Positions 14,393 to 26,489 of a DNA stretch of 26,489 nucleotides are shown here, in pieces. Source of the stretch: a virus; IMG/VR virus record IMGVR_UViG_3300009083_000129, positions 1 through 26,489 of that record; one strand, given 5' to 3'. The notes below the pieces were generated by a model. It had not been told where the DNA came from. It saw only the letters and a list, made by a program, of their open reading frames with translations, and made no database searches. The position numbers were made by a program, and so were the translations under genes. The number at the start of each line of letters is the position of its first letter. Within the stretch, counting starts at the first letter, position 1.

Positions 14393-15247
14393 TTAGATAG
14401 TTACCTTCAAAAAATCGTTCATTCGCTTCATTGTCGCTTCCTTATCTTTTTGTATTTCGCTTTGCATAACAATCAAACATTCGTAACCTGCTCTCTCAAA
14501 AACGTCTTTCGCGTCTTCTCTCGATTGACCTTCATGCCAGTAGTCACCCCATATTTCTATGAGTTTGTTAGAACCGGAGAGGATGAAGTCTGGACATTTT
14601 CTTTTTCCAGTGTCGATCCGTATCCACAACTTTCCATCTCCAACGTAAGTAAGAGAAGGAAAGATTTCCATGATGTACCGTTCTAGATTGTTCGGCAGGG
14701 TTCCGGCATCTCTTCTGTATTTCAGTAGCCTATCGCCGTATTCCTCGCTACCGGACCTGTACTTTCCAAGGTGGTCCATTGAGCAGAAAGAAAGTCTATC
14801 TCCGACCTTGAAGCTGCTTACGCTCCGAGTTATTCCACTTCCACAGTACGCGCAAAGAACCGTTTTCGGATTTGGCGGCCTCATAAGAGCCATGATTTCC
14901 GGGTCTTTGGATCTGCATGATCTTGAACAATGGTGTCTGCGGTCTGCTTTCGATGATAGGATCTCAAATTCGATCCCACACGTTTTACAGGCTTTGGTCG
15001 TGTACCCGGCTCTTCGTCCTCTCGCCTTCTCTTTTCCATTTAGGTGCTCGTGCTGCCTTTGACATTTTGACGAGCAAAATGATCTGGACGAGATAGATTT
15101 CGGAACCCGGCTGACCTTTCCGCAATTTTTGCAGGTTACTTCTGTTGATTTGGTAAGGTTCTTACAAGCGACTGAACAATATTTTCTCGGTTGAGAAGGA
15201 AAGGTTTCAATCATCTTCCCACATCCCTGGCAAGTAGTTTGCAGCAT
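14393..15247 (-). CDS. Free-standing Vsr-like homing endonuclease with zinc modules
   Basis: This encodes 284 residues from ATG 15247, with AGGAG six bases upstream. The N-terminal half holds repeated Cys modules: C6/C9 with C24/C28, C39/C42 with C58/C62, C87/C90 with C107/C111, and C132/C135 with a later C-x3-H. These are small treble-clef-like zinc folds for DNA binding. The C-terminal 90 residues contain CPDFIL, then LIEIWGDYWHEG and ERAGYECLIVMQSEI. This is the layout of the Vsr/EDxHD nuclease fold used by phage homing endonucleases such as I-Bth0305I. It likely cuts phage genomes lacking the insertion near this locus so that repair copies the gene. It is more AT-rich than its neighbours, has its own promoter and splits the head operon between capsid and adaptor. 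A domestic repair role is less likely in this context. Confidence 0.82.
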   Translation of the reverse strand: MLQTTCQGCGKMIETFPSQPRKYCSVACKNLTKSTEVTCKNCGKVSRVPKSISSRSFCSSKCQRQHEHLNGKEKARGRRAGYTTKACKTCGIEFEILSSKADRRHHCSRSCRSKDPEIMALMRPPNPKTVLCAYCGSGITRSVSSFKVGDRLSFCSMDHLGKYRSGSEEYGDRLLKYRRDAGTLPNNLERYIMEIFPSLTYVGDGKLWIRIDTGKRKCPDFILSGSNKLIEIWGDYWHEGQSREDAKDVFERAGYECLIVMQSEIQKDKEATMKRMNDFLKVTI

Positions 15248-21981: not shown

Positions 21982-22192
21982 TCCAACTCCGTAAAGTCAA
22001 ATTTACAACCGGATAATCAATATTACATTTCTCGCACTCGCAGCCACTCTGTTGAAACTGGTCGCAGTACCGATCCCCACGAAACGGCGCTGGAATTTGT
22101 TGGCCTGAGATTTCACAAAGTTCAAACTCGTGCTTGCCTTCCATGAAAGTCTGGCGGTGCCGGCATTGAGTGCAGGAAGCGCAGTGGATCAC
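21905..22192 (-). CDS. Cys-rich small protein (putative zinc-binding)
   Basis: This encodes 95 residues. The GTG at 22192 overlaps the terminase stop (GTGA), with GGAAGG five bases upstream, which is why I choose it over an in-frame ATG inside the terminase gene. The first 60 residues contain HCASCTQCRHRQTF, then FELCEI, DRYCDQF and GCECEKC, a pattern suited to one or two zinc sites. The rest, from about NLTLRSWNAK on, overlaps the next gene and looks less protein-like. The translated 3' part could be an artefact of a lost stop. Function is unknown; small zinc proteins next to terminases are sometimes DNA-binding or HNH-like, but no HNH motif is visible here. Confidence 0.55.
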   Translation of the reverse strand: MIHCASCTQCRHRQTFMEGKHEFELCEISGQQIPAPFRGDRYCDQFQQSGCECEKCNIDYPVVNLTLRSWNAKITNADAASGRKADPDDPRDRLW

Positions 22193-24744
22193 CTTCGCCT
22201 TCCGGACGTCCTGGCTTTGAAAGCCTGCCGGTAGTTTGAATGGCTCGGGACAAACGTCTCGCGTTCTTCGGTGGTCTCCGGGTTGTTGATATACCGCGCC
22301 AGGAAGGAAGCCTGGGCAATCGTCATCACGATATCCTGCGGCAGTTTCTTCAGCTCCACCTCGTCGCAGTAATTGTTCATCTGCTTGACCAGGCCCTTGA
22401 TCACCGGCCAGCAAATATTGTGATTGGAGACGTCGAGCGAAAGGGAATTGAGCATGCGCGCCTTGTCCTGCGAGAAGTTCAACCCGTCAATCGAAAGCCC
22501 CATGTTCTCGAAAGCCAGCTCGTCGATCGCCTTCTGGGTGCCGGTGGTGTCCATGCCCTTGAGGATGGGGCGGTACTTCTCCATCGCGTATTTGTAGGAA
22601 TTGAGGAACGGGTTGTAGGAGCCGCGTCCATCCACCCAATGGAAATACACGTTGCGGATCGGCTTCTGGGAGATGTCAAAGACCATCACCACGCCCGAAT
22701 TGCGGTGAGGCGGGCTGTCGGTGCCGGGATCTCCCACCGAGATGTAGCTCTTCCTGGGGTCAAAGGGCAGCTCGAATTTGGTGATGCCGTAACGGGGATG
22801 CTCCTCAACCACGTAGCCGCGCTTGGGAGCGCCTTTCTCCGGGTGCATCGCCTCGTACGCGGCGTCGTTCAGCGATTGATCCACGCAGGCTTGCAGGTGC
22901 GACTTGGGGAAGAAGCTCATGCCGTATTCGGGGAACTTCGCCCGCATTTCCACATCGATCATTTCATCGGTGTATTCGGCTTCCATCGCCTTGATCTGTT
23001 CGGGATCGAGCCGGGTGTTCTCGTAGGTGGTGGCGCGCAAACTGTAGAAATGATCGGGGTCGAATTTGTCCGAGGTTGGATCGCCTTTATCAAAGCGCTC
23101 CTTGAGCCACTGGGCATCAGTGGGGGAGGTGATCACATCCATGCGGGCCATGCGCTGCGAGCCGTCCGGTCTCACGCCTCGAAGCCGGCCTCTGAGGATC
23201 TTGATCGTTTCGCCGGTGTAGTCCAGGCCGGCCTCATCGTAATTGATGCGGTCGAATTCCAACCCGCGAATAAAGCGCCCGTCCTTGCCGGCTGTGCGGA
23301 AGACCCAGACCGAGCCGTTGAGGAACTTGATCGTGGGATAAGGACGAAGGGCGATATCCGCAATGAGATGCTGGAGCTTGTCGTTGCCCTCGATCCAGGG
23401 CATGACCATTTCGAATGGGATTTCAGCTTGCTTGGCGGTGACGGAAGTGTTCAGGGCGCGGAAGTTGGGGATGGTCAGGCAGTCGATCAGGTAGGAGGCG
23501 GCGACACTGACCGACTTGCCAGAATTGTGATTAATAATCCCGTTCCCAACGTAATTGTTGTAATCGGGAACGATCATGTCGTAGAAATTCCCAATTCTTA
23601 TGAATTCGATTTTTTTGATTTGCGCATATAGAATATTTGTACTATAATAAATACAACTTTTATGGAGGTTATTGTATGGCGACACACAAAAGTTGGTCGC
23701 ATTTGACAAAGGAGTTTCTTCTTGATCTTCGAGAAGAACTCGTGACGTGGAAGGCCGTAGGAGAGTTGCTGGGGATTGAACATGGCACTCTTGTTCAAGT
23801 TCGCAAGCGGCTTGGAATGAATATGCTTTCGTTTCCAGATCACACAAAACGCCGCTGGAGGGGAAGCCGCATGGATCGGTTTGAGGATCAGATCCGAGAG
23901 ATGGCCTACATAGGGAAAAATTGCGGGGAGATAGCTCGTTCCATTGGAGAGGACGATCCGGAAGTTGTTCGAGACTGGATGAGCAAGAGGGGAATTTCTC
24001 GTCTGAGTTCCGGGGCTCCTGCCGGTTCTCTGAACCCGAACTGGAAAGGAGGGCAGTCGATTGACGCGGATGGTTACATTCTTTCGGCAGCGAAAGGACA
24101 TCCGAACGCAACAAAGAAGGGGTACGTTCGGGTACATCGACTTGTGATGGAAGCAAAGCTTGGAAGATATTTAAATCCGAGCGAAGTAGTTCATCACATT
24201 GATGGAAATGTCCAAAACAACGATCCGGACAATCTTGAGCTGTTCGAGACCAACGGCCAGCACCTTCGACGAGAGTGGAGCGATCCCGAGTGGGCAGAAC
24301 ACCTACGAACGCTCCGACAGGAAGAAGGTCTAAGGCGACGTATCCGTCCCGTGTCAGAAACCGATGAGCCATTGTAGTCTTGATCTTATAGCCATTCGAT
24401 AACGTGATCTCGTATAAAGCATCTTGGCCTTTTAAAAAAGGTCGAGATGCTTTTACTTTCACAAAGCCATTTCCATCAAACGAAACCACATCAACTGGCT
24501 CGTTCTTCTCGGAAAGCTCTTTTATAGTTCTCTGGGTTCCGTCTGAGCGCAATATCAATGTATCACCGGACACACAAGCGATGCCAGCTAAAAATGTCGA
24601 GTTCCTCTGTGTCGCGTGATGAAATGCAGCCTGGTACGGCAGCGGATCAAAGCCAAAATACCACTGCGTTGCCAGGTGGAACCCACCTGTCTCGCGCATG
24701 GCGACTTTCAGCATGTATCGATCTGCATCCGTTAATACGCTCAT
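22189..24744 (-). CDS. terL: Terminase large subunit interrupted by an intein
   Basis: This encodes 851 residues from ATG 24744 with AAAGGA upstream; removal of the 351-residue intein leaves about 500 residues, a normal size. The N-extein ends FLAGIA and the C-extein begins SGKSVSVAASYL, which joined give the Walker A loop AGIASGKS. Walker B is INYDEAG near residue 500. The C-terminal RNase H-like nuclease is marked by ISVGDPGTDS near 670 and KGMDTTGTQKAIDEL near 733. The enzyme pumps DNA into proheads through the portal and cuts it. Without splicing the ATP site is destroyed, so packaging depends on the intein. The whole frame, including the stretch opposite the HNH gene, has no stop. No small subunit gene is seen next to it. 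Confidence 0.92.
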   Translation of the reverse strand: MSVLTDADRYMLKVAMRETGGFHLATQWYFGFDPLPYQAAFHHATQRNSTFLAGIACVSGDTLILRSDGTQRTIKELSEKNEPVDVVSFDGNGFVKVKASRPFLKGQDALYEITLSNGYKIKTTMAHRFLTRDGYVALDLLPVGAFVGVLPTRDRSTLVEGAGRWSRTAQDCPDRCFGHFHQCDELLRSDLNIFQALLPSQVDVPERTPSLLRSDVLSLPKECNHPRQSTALLSSSGSENRQEPRNSDEKFPSCSSSLEQLPDRPLQWNELSPRNFSLCRPSLGSDPQTDPCGFPSSGVLCDLETKAYSFQAACELEQECHVQSPATLLRPSTSRVLLEDQEETPLSNATNFCVSPYNNLHKSCIYYSTNILYAQIKKIEFIRIGNFYDMIVPDYNNYVGNGIINHNSGKSVSVAASYLIDCLTIPNFRALNTSVTAKQAEIPFEMVMPWIEGNDKLQHLIADIALRPYPTIKFLNGSVWVFRTAGKDGRFIRGLEFDRINYDEAGLDYTGETIKILRGRLRGVRPDGSQRMARMDVITSPTDAQWLKERFDKGDPTSDKFDPDHFYSLRATTYENTRLDPEQIKAMEAEYTDEMIDVEMRAKFPEYGMSFFPKSHLQACVDQSLNDAAYEAMHPEKGAPKRGYVVEEHPRYGITKFELPFDPRKSYISVGDPGTDSPPHRNSGVVMVFDISQKPIRNVYFHWVDGRGSYNPFLNSYKYAMEKYRPILKGMDTTGTQKAIDELAFENMGLSIDGLNFSQDKARMLNSLSLDVSNHNICWPVIKGLVKQMNNYCDEVELKKLPQDIVMTIAQASFLARYINNPETTEERETFVPSHSNYRQAFKARTSGRRR
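23620..23648 (+). promoter_or_regulatory. Promoter of the HNH gene inside the intein
   Basis: TTGCGC (23620-23625), a 17-base spacer and a perfect TATAAT (23643-23648) lie on the plus strand. They sit within sequence that codes on the other strand for the C-terminal part of the intein. The ribosome site GGAGG (23664-23668) follows, seven bases before the ATG. Confidence 0.65.
23676..24377 (+). CDS. HNH homing endonuclease encoded antisense within the intein
   Basis: This encodes 233 residues from ATG 23676, chosen for GGAGG seven bases upstream; an ATG 13 codons earlier lies within the -10 box region and lacks such a site. The N-terminal half has two helix-turn-helix-like segments (TWKAVGELLGIEHGTLVQV and NCGEIARSIGEDDPEVVRDW). 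Then come the NPNWKGG and DGYI elements usual before phage HNH domains, and the HNH core: VRVHRLVMEAKLGR, EVVHHIDGN, then DNLELFETNGQHL. It should cut intein-less terminase genes and so spread the intein. Its last four codons, including TAG, lie opposite intein block B, and its final 28 or so codons lie opposite the N-terminal splicing domain, so this stretch codes on both strands. Confidence 0.92.
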   Translation: MATHKSWSHLTKEFLLDLREELVTWKAVGELLGIEHGTLVQVRKRLGMNMLSFPDHTKRRWRGSRMDRFEDQIREMAYIGKNCGEIARSIGEDDPEVVRDWMSKRGISRLSSGAPAGSLNPNWKGGQSIDADGYILSAAKGHPNATKKGYVRVHRLVMEAKLGRYLNPSEVVHHIDGNVQNNDPDNLELFETNGQHLRREWSDPEWAEHLRTLRQEEGLRRRIRPVSETDEPL

Positions 24745-26003: not shown

Positions 26004-26023
26004 CCTGAGTGGGGAATAGAAAA

Positions 26024-26489
26024 TTGTTAAAGAAAAATAAATATCGAATCTATTTCGTTTTTCTACTCATATTTGTGTTCACTATATTCAAATTTTCGGA
26101 CGCGTTCTCAATTACTCCACAATGGTATCCATTGTCGCCCATCCAACCAACCGTGTATGATCAGGGGCAACTAAATTGGTGTGGGCCCGGTGCATTGCAA
26201 TCGGTTATCCAATGGTCCGGGCAATATAATGATGGTACGCCAACTCCTGCTCCTACAATGATAACCAAAGCCGTATTATGGCAATTTATGAGAGATAATA
26301 CCTGTAAAGATATCGGAACAGGAAGGGATGTCGCTTTAGTAGGGCCTGTAGGTGATGGAGAGAACGATGTTAGGCGTCTCAATATTGCGTATGATTTTGG
26401 CGTTGATCCGCATGCATTAGCATGGACAATGTGGAGGAAGACTGGCCCTAATCATTTTTATCATTACTGGATATATTACAATTCAGCGG
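26024..26489 (+). CDS. Exported C39-like cysteine peptidase, partial (C-terminus off the right edge)
   Basis: The frame is open from a TTG at 26024 to the edge, 155 codons, with GGGGA eight bases before the start. The N-terminus is a clear signal peptide: basic (KKNKYR), a hydrophobic core (IYFVFLLIFVFTIF) and a likely cleavage after SDA. The mature part has VYDQGQLNWCGPGALQSVI, the catalytic Gln47/Cys53 pattern of C39-like papain-fold peptidases. The catalytic His would lie further on and is possibly beyond the window. Such proteins are often secreted peptidases or peptide-processing enzymes; the substrate is unknown. TTG is used because no upstream ATG is in frame with a ribosome site. It is likely co-transcribed with the gene before it. 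Confidence 0.72.
   Translation, partial: MLKKNKYRIYFVFLLIFVFTIFKFSDAFSITPQWYPLSPIQPTVYDQGQLNWCGPGALQSVIQWSGQYNDGTPTPAPTMITKAVLWQFMRDNTCKDIGTGRDVALVGPVGDGENDVRRLNIAYDFGVDPHALAWTMWRKTGPNHFYHYWIYYNSA

Follow-up and report, generated by a model that had tools for sequence, protein, structure and literature searches.

Antisense HNH endonuclease genes inside inteins of phage terminases: a proposed family of homing inteins with an inverted endonuclease

The DNA analyzed in this study (the window) is the viral record IMGVR_UViG_3300009083_000129, taken over its whole length of 26,489 nt. In the window, a gene resembling those of the phage terminase large subunit (TerL) is interrupted on the minus strand by an intein, and a gene encoding an HNH endonuclease lies entirely within this intein on the plus strand. 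We consider it very likely that the element is a homing intein with an inverted endonuclease, which is expressed separately from the antisense strand. The computed basis of this reading comprises the anatomy and fold of the intein, its precise insertion, selection in two frames, joint descent of the splicing (Hint) and HNH parts, and a presence/absence polymorphism, from which we infer splicing, antisense expression, cleavage specificity and homing. The arrangement, first proposed in a sequence-only reading of the window, is not confined to it: a search of viral and genome contigs for antisense HNH open frames associated with Hint domains showed that the core design generalizes to one family of at least 156 loci, all with a single relative phase of the two genes. 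The features of the window are as follows.

22189-24744, minus strand: TerL-like host gene, a continuous open reading frame (N-extein aa 1-56, intein aa 57-407, C-extein aa 408-851)
24577-24744, minus strand: N-extein, 56 aa, ending STFLAGIA; joined directly to the C-extein in 11 intein-less relatives
23524-24576, minus strand: intein, 351 aa, from C1 to the terminal HN, then S+1 (PF14890, TIGR01445, TIGR01443; AlphaFold2; Foldseek)
24277-24576, minus strand: Hint N-domain, about 100 aa, blocks A and B (domain models, AlphaFold2)
24364-24375, minus strand: TMAH motif (block B TxxH) of the Hint N-domain
23647-24276, minus strand: linker, the antisense translation of the HNH gene, predicted to be disordered (pLDDT; zero stops against 6.9 expected)
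23524-23640, minus strand: Hint C-domain, blocks F and G, ending IINHN (TIGR01443, AlphaFold2)
22189-23523, minus strand: C-extein, 444 aa, starting SGKS (11 intein-less relatives, 55-65% identity)
23676-24377, plus strand: HNH endonuclease gene, 233 aa, ATG at 23676, TAG at 24375-24377; wholly inside the intein, antisense
23664-23668, plus strand: Shine-Dalgarno sequence GGAGG serving the HNH gene, with 7 nt between it and the ATG
23620-23648, plus strand: candidate promoter TTGCGC-17-TATAAT, inside the Hint C-terminal half (from sequence)
24135-24236, plus strand: HNH motif HR/VVHHID/NNDPDNL (from sequence)

The minus-strand frame encodes 851 aa with no stop throughout. Residue C57 (24574-24576) is C1 of the intein and N407 (23524-23526) is its last residue, followed by Ser. 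Comparison with splicing-domain models revealed matches to PF14890 (E 1e-18) and, starting from C57, to the N-terminal region model TIGR01445 (E 8e-14), and a weaker match of the C-terminal splicing region to TIGR01443 (E 0.003). The coordinates previously proposed for the intein (minus strand, 23524-24576) proved exact. Among 42 members of the family Cys1 is nearly invariant, while the block B His (of TMAH in the window) and the terminal H350 and N351 (of IINHN, followed by S) are invariant. The AlphaFold2 model of the window intein has a Hint fold, with pLDDT values of 92-99 (mostly >95) for residues 1-90 and approximately 318-351, and mostly <50 for the linker (residues 100-310). The best PDB match of this model, identified with Foldseek, is the Ssp DnaB mini-intein (E 9.7e-9), which was also matched by sequence.

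The intein is inserted at FLAGIA^SGKS. The intein is absent from eleven IMG/VR relatives of the C-extein (55-65% identity), in which the site is an uninterrupted GIA/GIAx-GK(T/S), so the insertion in the window lies exactly within the Walker A motif of TerL. An alignment of 12 relatives contains Walker A, Walker B (DE) and TerL-type conserved columns. The C-extein by itself gave no Pfam match, its profile gave no match in the PDB, and a tblastn comparison of the whole TerL of the window with cultured phages gave no match. Identification of the gene as TerL is therefore based on its motifs, on the rest of the family and on gene order (a portal gene of the SPP1/phrog_64 type is the next large gene downstream, with capsid and tail genes beyond).

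The HNH protein of the window matches HNH_3 (PF13392, E 6e-11) and phrog_20891 (E 1e-25). The HNH_3 domain occupies aa 152-190, preceded by an N-terminal extension, and the motif residues are invariant. The stop codon of the gene overlaps the Thr codon of the TMAH motif. A perfect TATAAT box (23643-23648) precedes the ATG by 27 nt; the -35 sequence (TTGCGC, 17-nt spacer), however, is weak, and a strict promoter scan gave no call. Thus, of the complete plus-strand HNH gene described earlier, the gene itself, GGAGG and the stop codon stand, and the promoter does so only in part. Misassembly, which had been named as a possible refutation of the HNH gene, is excluded by independent contigs and by nine cultured phages. 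For the window, synonymous shuffling of the HNH gene predicts 6.9 stops in the intein frame, and none is present (P about 0.0001); no relative is close enough to the window for a codon-position test, and its two-frame evidence is this stop test. Since about 200 nt separate the end of the HNH gene from the intein N-terminus, the dual-coded stretch within the Hint blocks of the window is short.

The family was delimited by two independent scans. In the HNH-first scan, an HNH profile was compared with viral and genome contigs and Hint HMMs were then used to seek intein ends on the opposite strand; this yielded at least 84 loci (the window included), which form 60 clusters at 80% DNA identity. The layout is seen in 78 of the best 80 viral HNH relatives, of which 76 were recognized by the automatic screen and two by eye (L093, on a truncated contig, and L089); detection of members depends in part on an open antisense frame, though such a large fraction of these relatives qualifies. 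The second was a profile scan that started at the splicing C-terminus and made no use of HNH. Among the matches listed, 72 of the 75 complete inteins carry an antisense HNH gene and three are mini-inteins without HNH, and no sense-strand HNH was found in any of the 75. The total of 156 refers to loci and not to distinct viruses, since the scans overlap in some contigs; each scan kept 80 of a larger number of matches, and the family is larger than the set of loci examined. The three mini-inteins (L225, L230 and L233; 135, 152 and 146 aa, respectively) belong to the same family and reside in the Walker A motif of TerL, the antisense HNH gene having been wholly lost.

Most members interrupt TerL at Walker A. 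Of 57 C-exteins of the family (the window included), 29 match Terminase_6N and 24 match Terminase_3. The insertion sites are mainly of the form G^(S/T/C)GK(S/T), others being (i) GK^TT, (ii) Walker B, in L089 (2392-4809), where the antisense-HNH intein lies at ICLM^C...NQN^CFDELTS, and (iii) Walker A of an SNF2/helicase-type gene instead of a terminase, in L035 (2122-4395), the single helicase host. In the host open reading frame of L049 or L076 the C-extein also matches LAGLIDADG_3 and Hint, which probably reflects a second, classical intein. The terminase profile phrog_17415 (940 aa) matches the intein C-terminus, and its members thus seem to be intein-containing TerLs.

Nine cultured phages carry the element, namely Koroua, Amona, Ymer, Abuela, Sabo, Taid, Pappous and Setonix, which represent the Koroua-Setonix group of Pectobacterium/Dickeya phages, and Pseudoalteromonas phage PHS3; it was also found in one Acinetobacter genome. 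Among cultured phages, the HNH protein of the window is matched best in Pectobacterium phage Koroua, where the HNH gene lies antisense within a "hypothetical protein" gene just before the portal gene; this interrupted gene is a TerL gene with a Hint intein at AGFG^TGKS. The same layout is present in PHS3 and in the IMG/VR locus L002. The public annotation of PHS3 (KX912252; L024:2700-4826) lists a short "terminase large subunit" and an HNH gene, the intein having been missed, and in a paper on the Ymer genus the words intein and HNH are both absent. The HNH matches in Shagrat, Bella, BRkr and Silvergun proved to be ordinary genes, either same-strand or separate.

In all 156 loci codon position 1 of the HNH gene lies opposite codon position 1 of the intein. 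When the HNH core of 60 representatives is shuffled synonymously, leaving the protein and its codon counts unchanged, 304 stops are expected in the intein frame; none is present, versus 451 and 331 stops in the other two antisense frames of the same representatives. As controls, 61 free-standing HNH relatives were analyzed; 431 stops were found in them against 485 expected, and none was stop-free. In 70 close pairs the differences within the HNH core amount to 0.345 at HNH third positions versus 0.123 and 0.090 at the other two. Because HNH third positions coincide with intein second positions, where the differences fall, the linker sequence is free. Within the Hint C-domain of close pairs the pattern is that of the intein frame (0.327 at intein third positions versus 0.055 at second positions). 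Thus, purifying selection acts on HNH in its frame and on the Hint domain in its own.

In approximately 108 of 155 members the HNH gene reaches a point no more than 60 nt from the intein N-terminus and overlaps the Hint N-domain. In members with this overlap, intein residues 21-80 are constrained at all three codon positions (0.060, 0.103, 0.091), whereas residues 1-20, which lie mostly past the HNH stop, have a free third position again (0.319), and the free third positions adjoining the dual-coded stretch reach 0.32-0.34. This indicates that the overlap between the Hint N-domain and HNH is real two-strand coding. The C-terminal extension of the HNH protein of L106 (residues 170-230) was predicted by AlphaFold2 to be helical with pLDDT values mostly of 82-94, and nothing significant emerged from a fold search with this HNH model.

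Hint distances correlate more strongly with HNH distances (rho 0.53) than with extein distances (0.34), with partial values of 0.47 versus 0.20, and pairs whose exteins are only 13-19% identical have inteins that are about 60% identical. Intein-less alleles are represented by the 11 relatives of the window and, at the DNA level, by phage AL, whose TerL protein is 98.3% identical to that of PHS3 and which lacks exactly the 900-nt intein. The nearest intein-less TerL relatives of the window are only 55-65% identical, so a near-identical polymorphism is demonstrated in PHS3/AL only. The single phase in 156 loci across unrelated TerLs points to one old association of HNH and intein. We regard it as likely, at a lower level of confidence than for the nature of the window element, that this is an ancient intein family whose DNA specifies, on its two strands, two proteins that are both under selection, with approximately 60 codons shared in many members by the Hint N-domain and a conserved, confidently folded helical endonuclease domain, and that, by homing to DNA that encodes Walker A, it has spread among phage packaging motors unrelated to one another.

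A Shine-Dalgarno sequence of at least 4 bases precedes the first ATG of the HNH gene in 33 of 60 members, versus 29 of 218 internal ATGs, and promoter-like sites (≤2 mismatches) occur upstream of HNH in 14 of the 60, versus 1.1 expected from dinucleotide shuffles; both are consensus matches and not proof of expression. The separation of endonuclease expression from that of the host protein, also put forward in the sequence-only reading, follows from the strand and is supported by this enrichment.

Under the homing reading, the TerL precursor would be translated with the Hint splicing domain, whose middle part, encoded antisense to the HNH gene, is a linker of some 200 aa predicted to be disordered, and the intein would then excise itself and restore the Walker A motif of TerL. 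The opposite strand would be transcribed independently from a promoter inside the intein and, with its own ribosome site, would give rise to a free HNH endonuclease. This enzyme may cut the intein-less Walker A-coding DNA of a co-infecting phage, and repair would copy intein and HNH as a single unit. Selection would keep both frames open, since any stop or frameshift, on whichever strand, harms either the splicing of an essential protein or the endonuclease.

Other explanations were considered. The antisense HNH protein might be a packaging-associated nuclease of the HK97 gp74 type that aids the terminase and has no role in homing, the intein serving as its passive home. The location of most members in TerL is in line with this, and HNH proteins adjoining terminases can reportedly be packaging factors. 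However, intein and HNH are jointly absent from AL despite its 98% identical TerL, mini-inteins persist without HNH, L035 interrupts the Walker A motif of a helicase, and HNH tracks Hint rather than TerL, which makes this explanation highly improbable. It is also improbable that an existing mini-intein was joined by a free-standing HNH gene that is now a mere passenger, its product cutting elsewhere, while the intein moves by recombination of flanking TerL sequences. Mini-inteins do exist in the family and free-standing HNH relatives are common, but the one old association implied by the single phase, the joint descent of Hint and HNH, and insertion always at conserved motif-coding DNA argue against it.

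Least credible of all, and in our opinion almost certainly wrong, is the view that the TerL frame running through HNH is a fortuitous open frame or an assembly artefact, the host gene being split or dead. The annotators of PHS3 did call a short TerL and a separate HNH gene; against this stand the 304 expected stops of which none is present, the conserved Hint blocks and intein-frame codon bias, the viability of nine cultured phages, and intein-less alleles that join exactly at C1 and S+1. We therefore retain the homing intein with an inverted endonuclease as the explanation of the element.

Large homing inteins (LAGLIDADG/HNH) share with this family the Hint splicing domain, an endonuclease between blocks B and F, precise insertion into a conserved active-site motif and mini-intein derivatives without endonuclease. 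Their endonuclease is an in-frame domain, whereas here a distinct gene in antisense orientation, with a start, Shine-Dalgarno sequence and stop of its own, encodes it, and sense translation of the endonuclease region is predicted to yield a disordered linker; the position of HNH on the opposite strand in all 156 loci sets the family apart from this class. In fractured genes, split inteins are said to have a free-standing endonuclease gene between their halves. Such genes reportedly resemble our loci in having the endonuclease as a separate gene located between the two Hint halves, but differ in that the host gene consists of two open reading frames spliced in trans, in contrast to the single continuous 851-aa frame of the window.

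The ShiLan domain is an HNH hidden in phage methylase genes on the same strand (PMC11855218). It is similar in that an HNH gene lies in an insertion that is stop-free in the host frame, in phages and with a homing-like distribution, and the HNH protein of the window detectably resembles the ShiLan region. However, the ShiLan gene is same-strand and out-of-frame, without a splicing domain or a Shine-Dalgarno sequence (PMC11855218), whereas here the gene is antisense within a real intein with a Hint domain, which sets the window element apart from this type. Antisense homing endonuclease genes are known in nuclear rDNA group I introns, which likewise carry them inside a self-splicing mobile element, but these are eukaryotic RNA introns with a His-Cys box enzyme (PMC9548176) and, being RNA introns in rDNA, have no antisense protein frame to keep open. 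No description of an antisense endonuclease in an intein was found in searches of open-access full texts. The mobile intein with an antisense endonuclease is thus apparently a widespread and undescribed kind. Beyond what the sequence-only reading had proposed, the design is widespread and many members are dual-coding through the Hint N-domain.

This design constitutes a third way to pack an endonuclease into an intein, besides the in-frame position and that between split halves. Examples are frequent in phage terminases and have been overlooked or wrongly split during annotation, as in PHS3 and the Ymer genus. The arrangement would uncouple the timing of the nuclease from that of a late host gene. 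The overlap ties a selfish gene to an essential one, which may slow the decay of the former, and the dual-coded part offers a natural system in which to study how opposite strands can encode two folds. PHS3 and AL offer a ready-made genetic cross.

Two further genes of the window are worth mentioning. The gene at 14393-15247 (minus strand), located between structural genes, encodes a zinc-finger, HNH-associated nuclease-like protein (phrog_1271, E 1e-18) and is probably a second, free-standing homing-type endonuclease. The gene at 26009-26488 (plus strand), which is cut by the end of the record, resembles by eye a C39-like cysteine peptidase.
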